This document shows, piece by piece, positions 29,594 to 40,936 of a stretch of 41,819 nt of DNA (within the stretch, counting starts at the first letter, position 1; the number at the start of each line of letters is the position of its first letter). The stretch covers positions 1-41,819 of the forward strand of contig JACWAF010000009.1 in NCBI GenBank assembly GCA_014874185.1, read 5' to 3'. Below the pieces are notes generated by a model. The model saw only the letters and a list, made by a program, of their open reading frames with translations. It was not told the DNA's origin and searched no databases. A program made the position numbers and the translations under genes. This DNA comes from Nitrospirota bacterium (GTDB taxonomy: Bacteria; Nitrospirota; Thermodesulfovibrionia; Thermodesulfovibrionales; JdFR-88).

Positions 29594-32059
29594 TTAAATA
29601 TTTTCCGTCATCTCCCAGATGCCGCAGGGGCAGACGGCGGCGCAGAAGCCGCAGCCGATGCACTTTTCGCCGTCGACGGCGTACTCGAACCCGCCATCGG
29701 GTTTTTCTTCCCTGGAGATAGCGCCCCAGTAGCAGACGTTCTCGCACATGCCGCAATCGCGGCATGTGGCGCAGGAGAGACAGCGGTTCGCCTCGGAGAG
29801 GGCGGTCTTGGTGCCCGCCTCGCCGCGGCAGGCCTCGTAGTATGTGGTTTTTATGCGCTTGTAGGGTATCTGCTGTTTCACTTCCGGCATGTAGTCGTAG
29901 TGCATGAGTTCGGAGTTGATCTTGAGGGCCGTTTCGCGCCCATGGCCGATAGCGTTTGTCACCAGGCCGGGCCTTGTGGCGTCGCCTATGGCATAGACCT
30001 TGGGGTCTGATGTGCGGCCGATGGGGTCAACCTCGATCCAGCCGTTCTTGTCGCGGTGTATCTCTTCGGTGAGGAAGTCCACGACGGGGGTCTCGCCTAC
30101 CGCAACAACGACCAGGTCGGCGGGTAGTGAGGAGCCATCTTTGAAGTAGATGGTCTTTGCGCCTTTGTCGTATTTTTCCGTGAATTTGGGCCAGAGGATC
30201 TTTGTGCCTTTTGCCGTGGCCACATCCATCTCCTTGCCGAAGGCGGCGGGCTTCTGGATATCCACGGCGGTCACGCTTTGCGCGCCGCAGTTATATGCCT
30301 GCGAGGCCACGTCCATGCCCACGTTCCCGGCGCCTATTATGACCACGTTTTTGCCTGTAAGCTCGGAGGCCATGCCGGTGTTTATCCCGCGCAGGAACTC
30401 GTAGGCGGTAACGGTGCCCTCGTGGCCCGGGAAGGGGATTTTTCTTGGGCTGTGCGCTCCGCAGGCAACTATCACCACCTCGTGTCCTTTATGTATCTCT
30501 TCGAATTTCTGCCTGTTTACTTTGGTTTTGAGGTGTACTTTTACGCCCACCTCTTTGAAGCGCTCCAGCTCGCCACGAAGGATATTTTGGGGGAGCCTTT
30601 CGCGCGGGATGCAAAGCTCCAGCTTTCCGCCAAGCTTCTCCTCGGCCTCGTAGAGGTCTACGGAGTGGCCTTTGAGGGCCAGTTGCCACGCTGCGGAAAG
30701 GCCGCCGGGGCCGCCGCCTATCACGGCGATCGTGTGCCCGGTGGATGGGGCCGGCTTCGGAGCCTTAAGCTCCAGCGAGAGCCTGCCCATCTCTTTTATG
30801 TCTATGGGCTTGTCCACATAGAGCCCCCTGGTGCAGGACTGCATGCAGAGGTTCGGGCATATCTCGCCGCAGACGGTGGCCGGAAGCGGGCTGTATTCAA
30901 GCACCAGGTTCAGGGCCTCCGTGAGCTTGCCCGCCCTGATGAGTGCCGTCCTCTTGTGCGTGGGTATGTGCGTGGGGCAGTTGTAGGCGCATGGGGGCGC
31001 GTATTTTTCGTTGTTCCAGACGGGCTTGTTGCGCCTGTTTTCGCCTGTTGTTATGTATGGAAGAAGCGTGCGGTCGTGCGAGAGATACTCGGCGAATATG
31101 CCGCCAGCGCCCACTTCCTTCTCCCAGCCCGTGAGCCTGAAATCGGCCATTGAGCGGGGCATCTTCCTTCTTGCCGCGCGCTCGGCCGGGGTGTAGGCGA
31201 TGAGTTTTTTCCAGTCGTTTATATCCTTTGTGAGTTCTTTATAATACTTTTCGCGGTCGATTGCCTTTAAGAACGGCTTCATGTTGGCGGTAAGCCACTG
31301 CCAGTCCTCGGGGGTGAGGTCCACCAGTTTCACGTCGCCCTCGCTATAGCCCTGGATGGGGCCCCGGAAGTATATTGCGCCTCCCACCATGCCCACACAC
31401 GGCCTGTAGCCAAGGATGTTATGCGGGTTCCTGGGGTTTACGCCGCAGACCACGGAGTAGCCCCCGGCCTTGAACTCCGCGAAGGAATCGCCTACGTCCC
31501 TGAAATACCAGCTCTGGGGCGGGTCGAAACGCGGGTTCCTCTTGGTGAGCGTGTCCGAGCGCGCACCGGCGCTCCCCTGCACGTAAAGCGTGCCCTGGGC
31601 CGCCGCGTTGAACGCGCCGTTGGTCACATCGCCAAGCACGGTTATCTTCGCCCCGCAGTTTATCCAGCCGATGTCGTCCGAGGCGCTGCCTTTTACGATG
31701 ATCTCCGTGCCATTCATGCCCATGCTCCCGCACCGCTGGCCGACAGGACCTTCAACTGTGACGCGCACGGGTCCGGGATTATCAGGTGAACCCTGGGGCC
31801 AGATGCGCCCGCCGATGCCGTGCTGGCCGTCGGCCAGGACGGTGAGTTCGCGCGCGCCGTCTTTTACGGCTTTCTGAATACGCTCTTCAAGGACGCGCGA
31901 GGAGACGCGCTCGCCGCCTATATTGCCGCTTATGAGCACCTTCTTACCGTCTGTTTTCACGGCCGGCTCCACTGGAACGGTTTTGATACTGCCGTTCTTC
32001 CGGGCGCTCGCGGCCTTCACCTTTTTTATGTTGCTCTCTATTTTCTTTTTAGCAGGCAT
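29594..32059 (-). CDS. Archaeal-type glutamate synthase: GXGXG domain fused to GltD-like flavoprotein with ferredoxin tail
   Basis: 821 aa fusion. A lysine-rich start leads to a GXGXG beta-helix domain (about 40-285, repeats such as GQRCGSMGMNG and GSASDDIGW) as in the C-terminal part of GltB. Next is a GltD-like part: N-terminal Fe-S cysteines (CAYNCP; CGEICPNLCMQSC), an FAD motif (VIGGGPGGLSAA) and an NAD(P) motif (IIGAGNVGMD). Two ferredoxin-type 4Fe-4S motifs close the protein (CATCRDCGMCENVC and CIGCGFCAAVCP). It likely passes electrons from NADPH or ferredoxin to the synthase subunit. It overlaps that gene by 11 nt. The GXGXG-GltD fusion is noteworthy. Confidence 0.88.
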   Translation of the reverse strand: MPAKKKIESNIKKVKAASARKNGSIKTVPVEPAVKTDGKKVLISGNIGGERVSSRVLEERIQKAVKDGARELTVLADGQHGIGGRIWPQGSPDNPGPVRVTVEGPVGQRCGSMGMNGTEIIVKGSASDDIGWINCGAKITVLGDVTNGAFNAAAQGTLYVQGSAGARSDTLTKRNPRFDPPQSWYFRDVGDSFAEFKAGGYSVVCGVNPRNPHNILGYRPCVGMVGGAIYFRGPIQGYSEGDVKLVDLTPEDWQWLTANMKPFLKAIDREKYYKELTKDINDWKKLIAYTPAERAARRKMPRSMADFRLTGWEKEVGAGGIFAEYLSHDRTLLPYITTGENRRNKPVWNNEKYAPPCAYNCPTHIPTHKRTALIRAGKLTEALNLVLEYSPLPATVCGEICPNLCMQSCTRGLYVDKPIDIKEMGRLSLELKAPKPAPSTGHTIAVIGGGPGGLSAAWQLALKGHSVDLYEAEEKLGGKLELCIPRERLPQNILRGELERFKEVGVKVHLKTKVNRQKFEEIHKGHEVVIVACGAHSPRKIPFPGHEGTVTAYEFLRGINTGMASELTGKNVVIIGAGNVGMDVASQAYNCGAQSVTAVDIQKPAAFGKEMDVATAKGTKILWPKFTEKYDKGAKTIYFKDGSSLPADLVVVAVGETPVVDFLTEEIHRDKNGWIEVDPIGRTSDPKVYAIGDATRPGLVTNAIGHGRETALKINSELMHYDYMPEVKQQIPYKRIKTTYYEACRGEAGTKTALSEANRCLSCATCRDCGMCENVCYWGAISREEKPDGGFEYAVDGEKCIGCGFCAAVCPCGIWEMTENI

Positions 32060-33710
32060 AAGATATACCCAGCCTCTCCGCCATGGCCTTGTCGTCTATC
32101 GAAAGCCCGTCGGACATGCCTATGGGAAGCTCGGTGGAGCGGCCCATCGGGGCGAAAATTTTCCTAAGCTCCGTATCGGCGGCCTTGAATACCTCAACCA
32201 GCCTCTCCGCGACCTTCTCCGGATCCAGCCTCCTGTAGAGCTTCGGGTCCTGCGTGGTGATGCCCCTGGGGCAGCGGCCCGTGTTGCAAAGATTGCAACG
32301 ATTGTTCTCATCTCCCAAACAATCTGCCGTGGACTGCATCAGGTACTTGCCCACCGAGACCACCGAGGCCCCAAGCATTATGAGGGCCGCGGCGTTTGCC
32401 GCCAGGTTGCCGCGCTTTCCGACGCCGCCCGCCGCAATAAGCGGAAGCTCGTTCTGTCTGCCCTGCTTCACCAGGTCCAGGTAGCACTCCCTCAGGTTGG
32501 AGGCTATCGGGTGGCCCATCTTGTCCATCGAGACATTATATGCCGCGCCCGTCCCGCCGTCCTCGCCGTCTATGGAGAGCGCGGAGGCATAAGGGTTCCT
32601 TGCCAGGTTGTTCAAGACCGCGCGGGCCGTCTTCGTGCCCGAAATCTTCGGGTAGACCGGCACGCGGAAACCCCAGGCCATGGACATGGACTGTATCATC
32701 TTGGCCACGGCCTCTTCTATCGAATACTTTGTCTGGTGCGTGGGCGGGGACGCGAGGTCCACCCCCATCGGCACGCCGCGGATTTGCGATATGAGCTTCA
32801 AGACCTTATAGGACATGAGGAGCCCGCCGTCACCGGGCTTCGCCCCCTGGCCGTACTTTATCTCTATCGCGGCCGGGTCCGTCTGCATCCGGGGCAGTGA
32901 GCGCACGATCTCGTCCCAGCCGAAATAGCCTGAGGCTATCTGCAGGATGTAGTACTTCAGATATTTCGATTTCAGCAGGCGCGGAGGCATGCCTCCCTCG
33001 CCCGACGCCATGACGACCGGCATCTTCAATTCTTCATTCAGATAGGCTACGCCCATCGCAAGCCCTTCCCACATGGTCGGGGAGAGGGCGCCAATAGACA
33101 TGCTGCCTATCATTATCGGGTAGACCTCCCGCACGGGTGGAACGAACGTATCCTTTTTGGCAACAATCAGCCTGCCGTTTTCCGCCTTGATGGGGAGTCC
33201 TTCCGGCGGGAGTATCCGCCCCAAAAAGCTCCTTATATGGAACTCGTGCCGCCCGGCGTCCAGGGCCGGGTCGGTGAGCATCGATATCCTTGTGAATTTG
33301 ATCCTGTCCAGCGTGGATACGCCGGGGTCGTTGCGCCTTCCGCCGCGCTTGTAGGCGTCGCCCCCCCTGTTCTTGAAGTGGAGGAGCTTGTGGCTGGGGT
33401 TGAACTCCGGCTCGATGGCCTCATTGGGGCATACCAGCGAGCACATGGCGCACCCCACGCAATAGCGGTCCATATCGCGCACCTGGCGCACTATCTCTTT
33501 CGTGCGCCTTGCAACCCTGGGGGTGGGGACCGGCCCTTCCGAGGTCACAACCCTTTCGGTCACCACATCGGGCACAATGGCCTTGACCGGGCAGACCGCA
33601 GTGCACTGGCCGCAGCGCGTGCACCGGTCGTCCCTCCAGCGCACTATATATGGGAACTCCTTCAGAGTGAGTTCGTGGTTGTGGTCTATATCCCTTCCAG
33701 TTGGTCCCAT
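32049..33710 (-). CDS. Glutamate synthase FMN/ferredoxin subunit (GltB domain 2 type)
   Basis: 553 aa from the ATG at 33710, with AAGAGG upstream. Two 4Fe-4S clusters lie N-terminal (C30, C33, C36, C40 and C84, C87, C90, C94). The glutamate synthase FMN-binding barrel follows (about 150-530), with GEGGMPPRLL, KYGQGAKPGDGG and DGEDGGTGAA, and a C-terminal cysteine cluster (CNLCNTGRCPRGI) for the 3Fe-4S centre. It catalyses the 2-oxoglutarate amination step. It overlaps the glutaminase gene by 25 nt and the next by 11 nt. Confidence 0.92.
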   Translation of the reverse strand: MGPTGRDIDHNHELTLKEFPYIVRWRDDRCTRCGQCTAVCPVKAIVPDVVTERVVTSEGPVPTPRVARRTKEIVRQVRDMDRYCVGCAMCSLVCPNEAIEPEFNPSHKLLHFKNRGGDAYKRGGRRNDPGVSTLDRIKFTRISMLTDPALDAGRHEFHIRSFLGRILPPEGLPIKAENGRLIVAKKDTFVPPVREVYPIMIGSMSIGALSPTMWEGLAMGVAYLNEELKMPVVMASGEGGMPPRLLKSKYLKYYILQIASGYFGWDEIVRSLPRMQTDPAAIEIKYGQGAKPGDGGLLMSYKVLKLISQIRGVPMGVDLASPPTHQTKYSIEEAVAKMIQSMSMAWGFRVPVYPKISGTKTARAVLNNLARNPYASALSIDGEDGGTGAAYNVSMDKMGHPIASNLRECYLDLVKQGRQNELPLIAAGGVGKRGNLAANAAALIMLGASVVSVGKYLMQSTADCLGDENNRCNLCNTGRCPRGITTQDPKLYRRLDPEKVAERLVEVFKAADTELRKIFAPMGRSTELPIGMSDGLSIDDKAMAERLGISYAC

Positions 33711-34819
33711 ACCCTTGCCTCTTCCGCCCCCGGCGGGATCACGACCATGTCGTACTTCATCGGGAAGATGTCCTTGGCCTTGTCCCTTTCGGGAATGGCC
33801 TTGTCCACGCCGCATTCTTCCGACATGAGGGCGTACTTGCCCTTTGCGCCGCCAACCGCCCCGGGGCGAAGCTTCTTTGAGTCCTGCACCATGAAGGTGG
33901 TGCCATCGGGGGTGAACCCGATTACGCAATTGGGGCCGTCGATGATCAGCATCCTCAGGGACTGCCTCATCAGAAAGAGCGCGTCCCTGTCCGGCCGCTT
34001 CTCCATGTCCGCTTTTTTGAGGGGAGTTATCACGTCCTTGTAATAAGTGAGCGGATAGCCCAGGTGCTTGTGCACGTAATGGAGTATGTGCGTGAAGACC
34101 TCGCTGTCCGATTGATAGCCTATGTAGCCCGGAAACCCCCGGCTTGTGAGGTATTCCCTTATCGGCACGAATGCCGTGTTCTCGCCGTTGGTCATGGAGC
34201 CGTAGCCCTGTATGAAGAACGGGTGGCAGGCGTAGAGGTTTATGCCGTAATTGGTGTTCTGCCTGCCCTGGGCCAGGATGATCCTGGCCCTCAGTTCCTC
34301 GCCCTTGTCCAGGCCGAAATATTCGGCCAGAGTGAGCGGGTCGCCCACTTCTTTAAGGGTGATAACGTCGGGGTAGAACGAGAAGACAACTATCGATTCG
34401 TCTATATCCCCGTTCTGCGGCGGATTTACCATATTCCGCAGGGCAAGCCTGGTATTGAGGAGCAGCATCTCCTTCTCTTCCCAGGGCTTGTTCCTGTACT
34501 TTGAGGGGTAGTCGTAGAAATTGGCGAAGTAGACGTCCCTGTGGGTTATCCCCGGGACGGGCTTTATCTTCGGGCGCCAGGAGTGGACTTCCTTGAACCC
34601 CTGCGCGGCCATATGGTCCTTTACTTTCTTATATCCGTCCCTGGTGCAGATGCCGGAGAGGACGGGGTATTTCTTAAGGGGTTTTGCCCAGCCCCCCAGG
34701 TCTTTCAGCATCAGACCCATGCCGGAGCCGTCGTGCCCCTCTTTCATGGTTTCCAGGGCGTGGATGTTCTCGAGAGGTGAAAAATATTCCGCCGAGGTTA
34801 TGGCCGCCAGCCTGCACAT
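33686..34819 (-). CDS. Glutamate synthase glutaminase subunit (class II GATase)
   Basis: 377 aa. Begins M-C, with C2 as the Ntn nucleophile after methionine removal, followed by RLAAITSAEYF. It supplies ammonia to the FMN subunit. The fold continues through segments such as HDGSGMG and NGENTAFVP. This stand-alone GATase with separate FMN and GXGXG subunits is the archaeal-type arrangement of GltB domain 1. It is the first gene of the three, behind a strong promoter at 34890-34919. Confidence 0.92.
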   Translation of the reverse strand: MCRLAAITSAEYFSPLENIHALETMKEGHDGSGMGLMLKDLGGWAKPLKKYPVLSGICTRDGYKKVKDHMAAQGFKEVHSWRPKIKPVPGITHRDVYFANFYDYPSKYRNKPWEEKEMLLLNTRLALRNMVNPPQNGDIDESIVVFSFYPDVITLKEVGDPLTLAEYFGLDKGEELRARIILAQGRQNTNYGINLYACHPFFIQGYGSMTNGENTAFVPIREYLTSRGFPGYIGYQSDSEVFTHILHYVHKHLGYPLTYYKDVITPLKKADMEKRPDRDALFLMRQSLRMLIIDGPNCVIGFTPDGTTFMVQDSKKLRPGAVGGAKGKYALMSEECGVDKAIPERDKAKDIFPMKYDMVVIPPGAEEARVWDQLEGI

Positions 34820-37075: not shown

Positions 37076-37963
37076 ATGAAAGCCAGGCTGTTTTTGGCTG
37101 CGGTCCCCATCCTGCTCCTGGCGGCCTGCGCGTCGCAGGGCGATGCTGTGAAGACCGACCTCAACGACGTGAAGAGCTACGCGTTCGAGATGCGCGGGGA
37201 GCTGAACGGCGTCAAGACGGATGTCGCCAGGCTCAAACGGGACGACTCCGTCCGGGACGATGCCCTTAACGCCCTGAAGACATCGCAGGCCGACCTCCTG
37301 GGGCGGGTCCAGTCGCTGGACAGCGACGTGAAGGACCTGCGCGGCTCGGTCGAGGAAGAAAAGCACTTCAGCGAGAAGGCCATAAACGACCAGTCCGGCG
37401 CCAGTCTCGGCCTTAAACAGCAGATGGGTTCGATGGAGCAGACCCTGAAGGCCCAGGAAGAGGCGCTCATAAACCAGGCCAACAGGATCGGTCAGCTTGA
37501 GCAGGAAATAAAGACGCTGACGGCCGCGCCGAAGCCGGCGGCATCCCAGTCGGCGCAGGAGCAGTACGACCAGGCATATTCGCTCTTCGAGGGCGGGAAA
37601 TATCCCGACGCCAGGGCGGCGTTCCAGGGATTCCTTAAAAACAACCCCGATAACGACCTGGCCGGCAACGCCCAGTTCTGGCTTGCCGAAACCTACTTCA
37701 AACAGAAGGACTACGAGACGGCCGTCCTGGCATATGACGAGGTCATAAAGAAATACCCGCAGAACAGGAAGGTGCCCTCCGCCCTTTTGAAGCAGGGCCT
37801 CTCCTTCGTGGAGATGAAAGACCCCAAGGTGGCCTCGGCCCTGTTCAAGGAGCTTATAGACAAGTACCCCGGCAGCGACGAGGCGCAGACCGCCAGGGAG
37901 AAACTTGCCGGTCTGGGGCCGCACGCAAAAAGTGCGAAGAAAGCTAAGTCACATAGACGCTAG
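37076..37963 (+). CDS. cpoB: Tol-Pal-associated TPR protein CpoB/YbgF
   Basis: 295 aa. A signal peptide with lipobox-like LAAC (C18), so this copy may be a lipoprotein, unlike soluble E. coli CpoB. A coiled-coil region (about 30-150) precedes TPR repeats (about 160-280; [16 protein letters not shown], and [15 protein letters not shown]). CpoB coordinates peptidoglycan synthesis with Tol-driven constriction in E. coli. The start follows the pal stop directly. The 3' end overlaps moaC by 32 nt. Confidence 0.92.
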
Positions 37964-38411
37964 CGGCCATGCCCGCATGGTGGATGTCGGGCGGAAACCC
38001 AAAACACAGAGACGGGCGCTTGCAAGGGCGTCCGTCCGCCTCAAGAAGGAAACCATAAGCCTCATAATGGAAGGGCGCGTCCCCAAGGGCGACGTCCTGG
38101 CCGCGGCCCGCATCGCGGGCATCATGGCCGCAAAAAAAACCCCCGAGCTTGTCCCCCTGTGCCACCCTGTAATGATAACCTCCGTCCAGGTCGATATGGA
38201 AATAAACGCGGGCGAAGGCCGCCTGGACATCACCGCGCAGGTAAAGTGCACCGGCCCTACCGGCGTGGAGATGGAGGCCCTCACCGCCGTCTCGGTAGCC
38301 GCCCTCACCGTCTACGACATGTGCAAGGCCGTGGACAGGGAAGCGGTCATCTCCGATGTCATGCTCCTCGAAAAGGAAGGCGGCAAGAGCGGGAAGTTTA
38401 AAAGGAGATAA
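37932..38411 (+). CDS. moaC: Cyclic pyranopterin monophosphate synthase MoaC
   Basis: Second half of the first molybdenum-cofactor step (with MoaA), making cyclic pyranopterin monophosphate. The GTG at 37932 gives 159 aa starting [18 protein letters not shown], which is the usual MoaC beginning. LCHPVMIT and [18 protein letters not shown] are the conserved core segments. No other molybdopterin gene is in the window. It begins inside cpoB, probably by translational coupling. Confidence 0.95.
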
Positions 38412-38623: not shown

Positions 38624-39169
38624 ATGAAGAAGAGGTTTTTCGCAGAGATCGCGCTGATACTGGTGCTCGCCGTTTCAAACCTGGGCCTTGCCATATACGT
38701 CCAAAGATACGTTCAGAAGGAAAACATCGCCCAGTTGCAGCTGTTCTTTTTCTACAGCCCCGAGTGCCCCAACTGCAAGGCCTCAAAACCGATAATGGTG
38801 GAATTGATGAAAGAGCTTGTGAAAAAGCATGTCACTGTCCGCCCGTTGAATGTGCTGGAAGAGGTCACCTGGGATTTGCCGTCCAGGCTGGTGGCCCAGA
38901 AGGTCCAAAGGGCGTTGGGCGTGGATTTCATTCCCCTGCCCACGGCGGTCGTCTGGAAGCCGGGCCGGTTTTTATATACCTTCGTTGGAAGAGACAGCAT
39001 CCCCAAGCTTGCCGATTTCTTTGTGAAGAACGCGGGGATTGGAAATATCACCGCCAAGCTGGATATTCAGAATATGCCCAAAGAGGAATGCCTCGCCTGC
39101 CATAAAGAAAGAAAACTGCCCCCGCCGTCCACCTACAACTGCACGTATTGCTGCCATAAGACCAAATAA
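38624..39169 (+). CDS. Membrane-anchored thioredoxin-like protein with C-terminal haem-type cysteine motifs
   Basis: 181 aa. An uncleaved-looking N-terminal helix (about 7-25) suggests a periplasmic anchor. A thioredoxin-like fold follows, with the active-site motif C48-P-N-C51 (SPECPNCKAS) and the cis-proline segment IPLPTAVVWKP. The C-terminal 30 residues carry C156-L-A-C-H160, a haem c attachment motif, then C173-T-Y-C-C-H178, which reads as CX3CH. These could bind one or two c-type haems or instead hold metal. The combination is unusual. No cytochrome maturation gene is nearby. Function is unknown. Confidence 0.8.
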   Translation: MKKRFFAEIALILVLAVSNLGLAIYVQRYVQKENIAQLQLFFFYSPECPNCKASKPIMVELMKELVKKHVTVRPLNVLEEVTWDLPSRLVAQKVQRALGVDFIPLPTAVVWKPGRFLYTFVGRDSIPKLADFFVKNAGIGNITAKLDIQNMPKEECLACHKERKLPPPSTYNCTYCCHKTK

Positions 39170-39341: not shown

Positions 39342-39575
39342 ATGCTTCCTTATGATAAACAATTGAAAGTGCTATCGCAGCACCTCAGAATAAACATGAC
39401 GGATGCGGAAAAACTAATATGGTCAAGACTGAGACGAAAGCAATTGAAGGGGCACCAGTTTTATCGGCAAAAGATTATCGGCCGGAGTTATGGAAAGGAT
39501 ATGGAGTTGCTTATGATTTATAAAATCTCCCCTCACCCCTCTTTTCCAAAGAAGGGAATTATACAAAAATCTTAA
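39342..39575 (+). pseudogene. Truncated DUF559 endonuclease-like gene
   Basis: 77-codon frame. The first about 47 residues match the start of DUF559 (restriction-endonuclease-like/Vsr-fold) proteins: LSQHLRINMTDAEKLIWSRL, then RKQLKGHQFYRQKIIG. The expected DFYCP and EVDGGQH catalytic part is missing; instead the frame runs into low-similarity sequence and a palindromic repeat of the CCCCTCTTTTCC type. AAGGG precedes the ATG. It is best read as a degraded remnant. Confidence 0.65.
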
Positions 39576-39642: not shown

Positions 39643-40119
39643 TCACCAGCTCTTCTGGTTATTGTTGTTTATCCATTCCGTGAGTCCTTCGGTTACCCTG
39701 CCGGGCTTCCCGGTGGCTGTTATGGTGAAGCCGTTTGTGATCGCCGGGTTTTGCGTGGTATCCACGGTATAGTCTATCTCGTAATTGAAGTTCAGGCCCT
39801 GAGGGTCGCCGGGCTGGAACTGAGGAAGCCCGCCAAGGGCGGGGGTCTGGGAAGGGTAGCCGTCGCGGATGGAGGCGTCCGTGGCGTTATAGAAAAAGGA
39901 GCCGTTCGCGGTGGCCTCCTGTGGGGCATACTCCCCGTTTTCGGCATAATACTGCTCTTCCAGAAGCCTCAGGTTCTGCAAATTGGCGTAGGCCTCGCTC
40001 TCGGCCGCCTTCCTCCTCTGGCCGATATAGAGAGGATACGAGATACCGGCCAGTATGGCCAGAATCGATATGGTGATAAGAAGCTCTATTAACGTGAAGC
40101 CTTCTTCCTTTCTCCTCAT
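39643..40119 (-). CDS. Type IV pilin-like protein
   Basis: 158 aa from the ATG at 40119, with AAGGAG upstream. Prepilin leader MRRKEEG with cleavage before F8, E12 at the +5 position, and the hydrophobic helix FTLIELLITISILAILAGI. The globular part begins about residue 45 (YYAENGEYAPQ). It resembles PilE-type minor or alternate pilins. It lies 60 nt downstream of pilA on the same strand, with a strong terminator between, so it may be expressed at a lower level by read-through or from its own promoter, which was not identified. Confidence 0.9.
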   Translation of the reverse strand: MRRKEEGFTLIELLITISILAILAGISYPLYIGQRRKAAESEAYANLQNLRLLEEQYYAENGEYAPQEATANGSFFYNATDASIRDGYPSQTPALGGLPQFQPGDPQGLNFNYEIDYTVDTTQNPAITNGFTITATGKPGRVTEGLTEWINNNNQKSW

Positions 40120-40135
40120 CCCTTTTATCTCCTTC

Positions 40136-40170
40136 AAAAAAAAAGGGCAGGGTCTCCCCTGCCCTTTTTT
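40136..40170 (-). terminator. Intrinsic terminator between the two pilin genes
   Basis: 8-bp stem GGGCAGGG/CCCTGCCC (40145-40152 and 40157-40164) with a 4-nt loop, followed on the minus strand by a run of nine to ten T (complement of 40136-40144). The plus side also has six T (40165-40170). Confidence 0.85.
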
Positions 40171-40178
40171 CAGGTGTT

Positions 40179-40829
40179 TTATTCGCCCGTTGCAACGTAG
40201 GATGTAATTTCGCCTATTTTGCCAGCGCCATTGTCCTCGAGGGCGTCCACGGTTATCGTGTTCCCAGTGGCGTTTACTATCATATAGCACTGGCCGACAC
40301 CGGTGGTATCACCAGTAGCTGGAGCTACCCCTGTCGTAGAAACAGCAAAGAGGCAGTTTGCGCTGTTATACGGGCTGGCCTTCTTAAGACCACCATCAGG
40401 GTTTACACTAGCAGTCCCAGGAATTGCTGTTGCACCGCAGCCCTCGTCAGCAACGATATTTGCCAGGTCTCCAATACTTGAGTAGTCATTACCACTAATT
40501 TGAGAACCCGTCATATTAAATTTAGCCGTGCAGATGTCGTTAGTACCGTCAGTTGTCGTCTTGTTGGTATTCTCAATGCATAATTGGGCAGTCGCGTCTT
40601 TCTGTATAAGAATTGGGTCCAGATTGGTCAGGTCGTTCATCATGGTCATTAATTCTCTCTGGGCGCCGCCGCAGGACTCGTTGAGGGCGCGCCACTTGGC
40701 CTTCTTCTGCTGGCCCAGGTAGGCCGGGATGGCTATGGCGGCCAGGATGCCCAGGATCGCGATAACAATCAGAAGCTCGATGAGGGTGAAGCCTTTTCTT
40801 TCCCTCAGGTTAACCATTGCCTTGTACAT
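40179..40829 (-). CDS. pilA: Major type IV pilin (PilA-like)
   Basis: 216 aa from the second of two adjacent ATGs (40829), which has AAGGAGG at ideal spacing; the first is at 40832. Leader to G13, mature F14, E18 at +5, helix FTLIELLIVIAILGILAAIA. The C-terminal globular part (about 60-216) has cysteines and many T, N and G residues, suited to a surface-exposed subunit. Its central DNA (about 40290-40640) looks less GC-rich than the neighbours. A sigma-54-type promoter lies upstream and a terminator follows. Confidence 0.9.
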   Translation of the reverse strand: MYKAMVNLRERKGFTLIELLIVIAILGILAAIAIPAYLGQQKKAKWRALNESCGGAQRELMTMMNDLTNLDPILIQKDATAQLCIENTNKTTTDGTNDICTAKFNMTGSQISGNDYSSIGDLANIVADEGCGATAIPGTASVNPDGGLKKASPYNSANCLFAVSTTGVAPATGDTTGVGQCYMIVNATGNTITVDALEDNGAGKIGEITSYVATGE

Positions 40830-40936
40830 CATTGCCTCCTTCTTGAGTATTGATATGAATTTATACCCCAACTAACCGCTTGAACCCTAAACCTGTCTGC
40901 TCCCACCTCCTTCTAACAAGCTCTGCGGGAATATAT

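Follow-up and report, generated by a model that had tools for sequence, protein, structure and literature searches.

Gene and protein at the locus

The window, by which the whole analysed stretch of 41,819 nucleotides is meant, carries on its forward strand (38624–39169) a gene with an ATG start that encodes a thioredoxin-fold protein of 181 aa with a Cys- and His-bearing tail, as delimited by the list of open reading frames and by homologues. A search of its own 2.43-Mb genome returned no second copy of this protein at E ≤ 0.001. The N-terminus forms a hydrophobic helix, residues 6–24 (38639–38695, +), which hydropathy (best 19-residue mean 2.25) and column counts mark as a membrane anchor, and the N-terminal helix of the AlphaFold2 model takes in residues 2–31. 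The thioredoxin-fold domain follows at about residues 33–138 (38720–39037, +), as placed by Pfam, AlphaFold2, Foldseek and VIA, and contains the CPNC active-site motif at residues 48–51 (38765–38776, +) and Pro106 (38939–38941, +), which occupies the place of the thioredoxin cis-proline and by analogy with the family would be in the cis state. A short linker joins this domain to the C-terminal tail, in which 5 Cys and 2 His fall within 23 residues. The tail consists of CLACH, residues 156–160 (39089–39103, +), a CxxCH motif of the haem-c type, and CTYCCH, residues 173–178 (39140–39157, +), which is a CX3CH motif with an extra Cys inside; since the CX3CH overlaps a CxxC, CxxCCH is the fuller description, and both readings are valid.

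The upstream neighbour is moaC (37950–38411, +; Pfam MoaC, 199.1 bits). Downstream lie a truncated DUF559 gene (39342–39575, +) of 77 aa, which covers profile positions 2–43 of 109 (36.2 bits) and has short CCCCCTTTGGAAAAGGGGG-like runs on its flanks, as judged by eye, and a side-by-side pair of type IV pilin-like genes that have N-methylation motifs (39643–40871, −). At 29594–34819 (−), glutamate synthase-like functions are apparently split across three neighbouring open reading frames, two of which carry ferredoxin-like Cys motifs, both observations being made by eye.

Predicted fold

The closest Pfam match of the protein is TraF (PF13728; residues 36–114, 24.0 bits with the cut-off at 23), followed by Thioredoxin (PF00085) at 20.6 bits, under its cut-off of 23.5. 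All Pfam matches are confined to the thioredoxin part, and no NCBIfam model comes close to its cut-off. AlphaFold2, run on a 23-row alignment of the family, gave a mean pLDDT of 85.5, falling to 77, 72, 54, and 39 in the four C-terminal blocks, where the tail lies; the models place a helix across the first CxxCH and have low confidence across the second CxxC. Foldseek and VIA matched the model to thioredoxin-type chains, mostly over residues about 33–138, with VIA Z scores of 8.0–9.1 among the 50 matches listed. The CPxC that starts helix 1 of the predicted structure and the proline opposite it, Pro106, are both kept in all 23 aligned members, as is typical of the thioredoxin fold. Together, these predictions and motifs lead us to read the protein as a thiol-disulfide oxidoreductase of thioredoxin fold located outside the cytoplasm. 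The sequence-only reading had already suggested a redox protein built on a membrane-anchored CPNC thioredoxin fold, and knew of no named family of this kind. Fold and motif support a putative redox role, and in the profile searches neither a Pfam nor an NCBIfam model spans the whole protein.

Conservation and distribution of the tailed family

A scan of genome contigs identified three Archaeoglobales homologues that align with the window protein from residue 9, 10 or 12 to residue 178. Within the bacterial phylum of the window, a profile search of 395 genomes recovered one tailed homologue, in G295, a genome from the window's class (E 3.6e-41), with no further open-frame homologue carrying the whole tail among the matches listed, and a search of 176 genomes from the window's own order yielded no other tailed protein. 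The archaeal searches covered a phylum sample of 392 genomes and then 59 genomes of the class to which the Archaeoglobales belong, 20 of which hold tailed genes, 23 in total; at least one cultured species, Geoglobus ahangari, has a member. The alignment used throughout (A4) comprises 2 bacterial and 21 archaeal rows, two genes having been left out, namely that of G675, which is interrupted by an in-frame TAG, and the second copy of G584. A related thioredoxin domain also occurs in G443 (locus L071), where it lies C-terminal to the long N-terminal part of a 439-aa lipoprotein-like protein.

All 23 rows share CPxC, Pro56, Pro106, Gly122, C156, C159, H160, Pro168, C173, C176, C177, and H178, so that a loss of Cys or His residues from either tail motif, which would have told against the sequence-only reading, is not seen in any homologue of the alignment. 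The CLACH and CTYCCH motifs that the sequence-only reading had picked out in the 181-aa frame are accordingly no accident, the invariance of all seven tail Cys and His residues arguing that the tail is not a product of chance. The mean pairwise identity of the tail (0.59) exceeds that of the thioredoxin domain (0.37), as it does in 247 of the 253 individual pairs; without the seven Cys and His columns, the tail mean is 0.42. Two further Cys of the thioredoxin domain, present in 22 and 19 of the 23 members, are missing from the window protein. The mode of anchoring differs as well: a Cys stands at the lipobox place in 21 of the 23 members and the two bacterial proteins carry a plain helix instead, which suggests that the archaeal members are anchored mostly in the manner of lipoproteins.

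The tail was also followed at the DNA level through the pattern CxxCH-x12-CxxCCH, which occurs in 2 of 230 genomes of the window's class (G000, the window's own, and G295) and at 22 places in 19 of 384 genomes of the archaeal phylum sample, compared with no match in the 230 and three matches in 2 of the 384 for the reversed control. All 22 archaeal places are tailed thioredoxin genes, and a tail without a thioredoxin domain was found nowhere in these 230 and 384 genomes; the member in G660, whose spacer is 11 residues long, escapes the pattern. A much larger viral collection yielded 54 matching stretches; in 15 of them an open stop-to-stop frame contains the motif, and most of these frames are short or very rich in Cys. 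None of these 15 frames has C[PGAS]xC upstream of the motif, and the viral matches look like chance. An origin in a virus, plasmid or mobile element was considered and set aside, as no protein match was found in plasmids, phages, viral contigs, or PHROGs. Taken as a whole, the tailed thioredoxins are, by their shared sequence features, a small, sharply defined and mainly archaeal family without a name.

Gene neighbourhood and origin

Both bacterial tailed genes adjoin moaC where a tolB-pal-ybgF-like locus ends, in differing orientations: the G295 homologue is convergent with moaC, the opposite of the relative orientation in the window. A functional link with moaC was rejected on account of these opposed orientations and of 18 other moaC loci from the window's class in which, over at most about 1.5 kb per side, the pattern finds no tailed gene; the two genes are probably functionally unlinked. 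The neighbours of the archaeal tailed genes differ between lineages among the loci listed of the 24 collected, and a reading of the neighbours as operon partners was dropped on that ground. No PF01578 (cytochrome c assembly) match lies within 20 kb on the same contig of any of 25 tailed genes, several of the contigs being short (down to 6.9 kb), so that, judged by PF01578 and CcmE, the assembly genes whose positions were searched, the tailed genes do not appear to sit among assembly genes. Because no PF01578 match is near and the neighbours vary, the tailed protein seems to act on its own, which would make sense if its redox partner were the tail itself.

Phylogenetically, the bacterial pair is placed within the archaeal part of the tailed family, where it shares an open group of middling support (87/84) with the members from G482 (Geoglobus ahangari), G597, G753, G655, and G645, and the window branch is very long. 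On this tree, the simplest account is that the gene likely came by transfer from archaea and was then lost or stayed rare.

Tail-less relatives

Loci of six tail-less relatives (L158 to L163) were fetched from the same archaeal class, of which L158 and L159, chosen because PF01578 matches were already known nearby, contain ccm genes, L159, L161, and L163 contain VKOR-like genes, and L160 and L162 contain neither. The CcmH-type genes of L158 and L159, one or two in each, score 71.2, 65.7, and 29.2 bits against Pfam CcmH. These two loci have ccmF-type and CcmH-type genes side by side even though CcmH has been described as rare in archaea (PMC4429474). Small membrane proteins of 112–118 aa adjoin the tail-less thioredoxins at L161:4455–4790, L163:3752–4105, and L159:3844–4197; they are VKOR-like by eye, which would make them candidates for a partner that the tail replaces, and have no Pfam name, and a VKOR search gave matches in 5 of 61 genomes, one of them over the cut-off. 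From the ccm and VKOR-like neighbours of the tail-less relatives, part of the wider group looks as if it takes part in disulfide handling outside the cytoplasm.

Evidence bearing on haem

Among the features expected of a c-type cytochrome, a conserved CxxCH is present in 23 of 23 members, and an export anchor, either a helix or a Cys at the lipobox place, is combined with a host assembly system, every one of the 22 tailed hosts, of which 20 are archaeal and 2 bacterial, carrying PF01578 genes. The presence of assembly genes in tailed hosts says little, given that almost all of these archaea possess them: PF01578 is found in 20 of 20 tailed vs 35 of 39 tail-less archaeal genomes, too common to serve as a discriminator of tailed hosts, for which purpose it was discarded. 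CcmE is found in 18 of 20 vs 28 of 39, two tailed genomes thus showing none.

A tail profile produced 12 weak matches in the PDB, none significant (E 0.021–6.8), of which 9 are, judged by name, c-type cytochromes or cytochrome subunits, a share that the CxxCH alone could cause; the best of them (E 0.021) covers the first motif only. With a limit as loose as E 10, none of the Pfam cytochrome profiles recognises any of 20 tails, the best Foldseek match of the tail model has E 6.2, and beyond the tail motifs the 23-member alignment conserves neither His nor Met. Distal ligands for two haems are consequently lacking among the other conserved residues. H178 could be the distal ligand if only the first site holds haem, and C176, the third invariant Cys beside C173 and C177 in the second motif, for which an ordinary haem site offers no place, might act as a thiolate ligand if both sites do.

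One member has probably already been listed as a putative c-type cytochrome. The genome of G. ahangari (1,770,093 bases) encodes GAH_01534, a hypothetical protein listed in Table 6 of its description among the putative c-type cytochromes. It is given there a single haem motif, a single membrane helix and a mass of 18.5 kDa, and its predicted mass matches that of a haem-containing outer-surface protein (PMC4600277). The tailed gene of G. ahangari lies at 1,314,344. Interpolation of gene numbers between the duplicate CcmF GAH_01093 (917,811) and CcmE GAH_01977 (1,689,129), both matched to results of the PF01578 and CcmE searches, places GAH_01534 near 1.303 Mb, about 12 kb away. Of the stop-to-stop frames of 80 or more codons in the 73.9 kb around the expected place, none but the tailed gene contains a CxxCH, and the product of this gene has one CxxCH and one hydrophobic N-terminal stretch, as described for GAH_01534. 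With one haem and cleavage at residues 15–22, its estimated mass would be 19.3–20.0 kDa, in fair but not exact agreement with 18.5 kDa. The G. ahangari member is thus probably GAH_01534, an identification that goes by interpolated place, motif count and helix and not by annotation. In the passages on GAH_01534, a thioredoxin fold and a CxxCCH motif both go unmentioned (PMC4600277).

Proposed mechanism and alternatives

The sequence-only reading had suggested that the protein may carry covalent haem. This stays plausible in the light of the host assembly genes, of the probable identity with GAH_01534 and of the archaeal CXXXCH site of MmcA, which carries haem c as judged by a mass shift of 615.17 Da (PMC11024163); the lack of a match to a cytochrome profile and of a conserved distal ligand counts against it. 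We tentatively favour, as a quite possible reading, a thiol-disulfide oxidoreductase with a miniature c-type cytochrome as its tail, the haem being coupled to CPNC. The predicted fold, the motifs with their invariance, the anchoring signals and the assembly genes of the hosts support this mechanism. We infer that the C-terminal ~25 residues would form the cytochrome module, to which the cytochrome c assembly system of the host would attach haem at C156/C159 with H160 as the proximal ligand, and that a second haem would probably be held at C173/C177, the CX3CH site, with H178, the number of haems being as much a part of the model as their attachment. Electrons would then be exchanged between the haem or haems and the CPNC dithiol, in a direction and with substrates that are likewise part of the model, and the disulfide state of exported proteins would thereby be coupled to the cytochrome pool.

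A rather unlikely alternative is that the protein resembles CcmG in acting as an apocytochrome reductase, in which case the thioredoxin domain would reduce the CxxCH of apocytochromes and the apocytochrome-shaped tail would be a haem-free thiol relay or a regulator that mimics the substrate, C156/C159 and C173/C176/C177 swapping disulfides with CPNC. The extra invariant Cys176 suits such a relay, and the invariant His after each Cys pair would not be needed for it. Two of the six fetched tail-less loci (L158 and L159) directly adjoin ccmF-type and ccmH-type genes, yet the tailed genes have no PF01578 match nearby, and the window protein reaches 10.5 bits against the NCBIfam ResA model (NF002854), far below the cut-off of 170. 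The literature bears on both sides of this question, as CcmH is absent from the archaeal Ccm system in most species (PMC9084895, PMC4429474), which would favour such a role, but ccmG and ccdA were dispensable for holo-MmcA in Methanosarcina acetivorans under the growth conditions used (PMC9084895).

Other readings assign the tail to metal without haem. The spacing of the two CxxC pairs (C156, C159, C173, and C176; CxxC-x13-CxxC) fits a zinc ribbon, and the tail could be a structural or redox Zn or Fe site of the zinc-ribbon or rubredoxin-knuckle kind, which we consider clearly unlikely. Zinc-type profiles do touch single tails among the 20 (A2L_zn_ribbon at E 0.0027 and Cas12f1-like TNB at E 0.054, one tail each), compared with none for the cytochrome profiles, but most of the 20 touch no zinc-type profile, and the invariance of H160, H178, and C177 would be left unexplained. 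The helix that AlphaFold2 predicts over the first CxxCH is taken as speaking against a zinc knuckle, as do the low confidence over the second CxxC and the apparently outward-facing position of the protein. A membrane thioredoxin whose tail captures soft metals (Cu, Hg, or As) or sulfur species, either to deliver or to detoxify them, is highly improbable. Soft-metal binding would not call for a strict CxxCH order; it would suit the density of 5 Cys and 2 His in 23 C-terminal residues. The heavy-metal P-type ATPase-like and CbiMNQO-like transporter genes seen by eye just upstream of the G295 gene (L103) also point that way, but they form no cluster common to other loci among the loci listed of the 24, in which the CbiO-like ATPase alone fell in a cluster, of two loci.

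Overall, the unusual and strictly conserved tail may well hold haem iron and would in that case connect disulfide chemistry directly with electron transfer. The fullest form of the haem-bearing model is quite improbable. It would be a redox lipoprotein in which a two-haem mini-cytochrome is fused to a thioredoxin, with the second haem at CxxCCH and Cys176 as a thiolate distal ligand or redox thiol; respiratory electrons would directly set the disulfides of proteins on the surface of Archaeoglobales-type archaea, and of a few bacteria that received the gene by transfer, in place of VKOR/DsbB or CcdA/DsbD membrane partners. A haem-thioredoxin, if proven, would directly connect cytochromes with protein disulfides, and CxxCCH would join the haem sites. 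To our knowledge, how archaea that lack the usual membrane partners recharge their extracytoplasmic thioredoxins is a largely open question.

Comparison with known systems

Among the papers listed by a literature search that took in few subscription journals, no title or abstract opening describes a thioredoxin with a CxxCH/CxxCCH tail. In a survey of archaeal cytochromes c, proteins of the thioredoxin family were excluded because they often gave false CxxCH positives (PMC4429474), a criterion under which the tailed family could go unnoticed.

Among named groups, the TraF/TrbB type (PF13728, TIGR02738) gives the best Pfam match of the window protein without overlapping the tail, and the TrbB equivalog TIGR02738 scores 18.3 bits vs a cut-off of 132. 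The CcmG/ResA/TlpA proteins share with the window protein an extracytoplasmic, membrane-anchored thioredoxin fold with a CxxC; we know of none with such a Cys/His tail. Multihaem cytochromes c differ in that the tail has only two sites, an extra Cys and a fusion to thioredoxin. The nonahaem cytochrome 1duw ends in a stretch that aligns with the complete tail, not significantly (E 0.24), and reads CxxCH-x12-CxxCH, with one residue fewer in its last motif than the CxxCCH of the tail. MmcA of M. acetivorans differs in being a multihaem protein, with seven haems, and the likeness between it and the window protein, drawn from motifs and not from a comparison of their sequences, is the CXXXCH site (PMC11024163).
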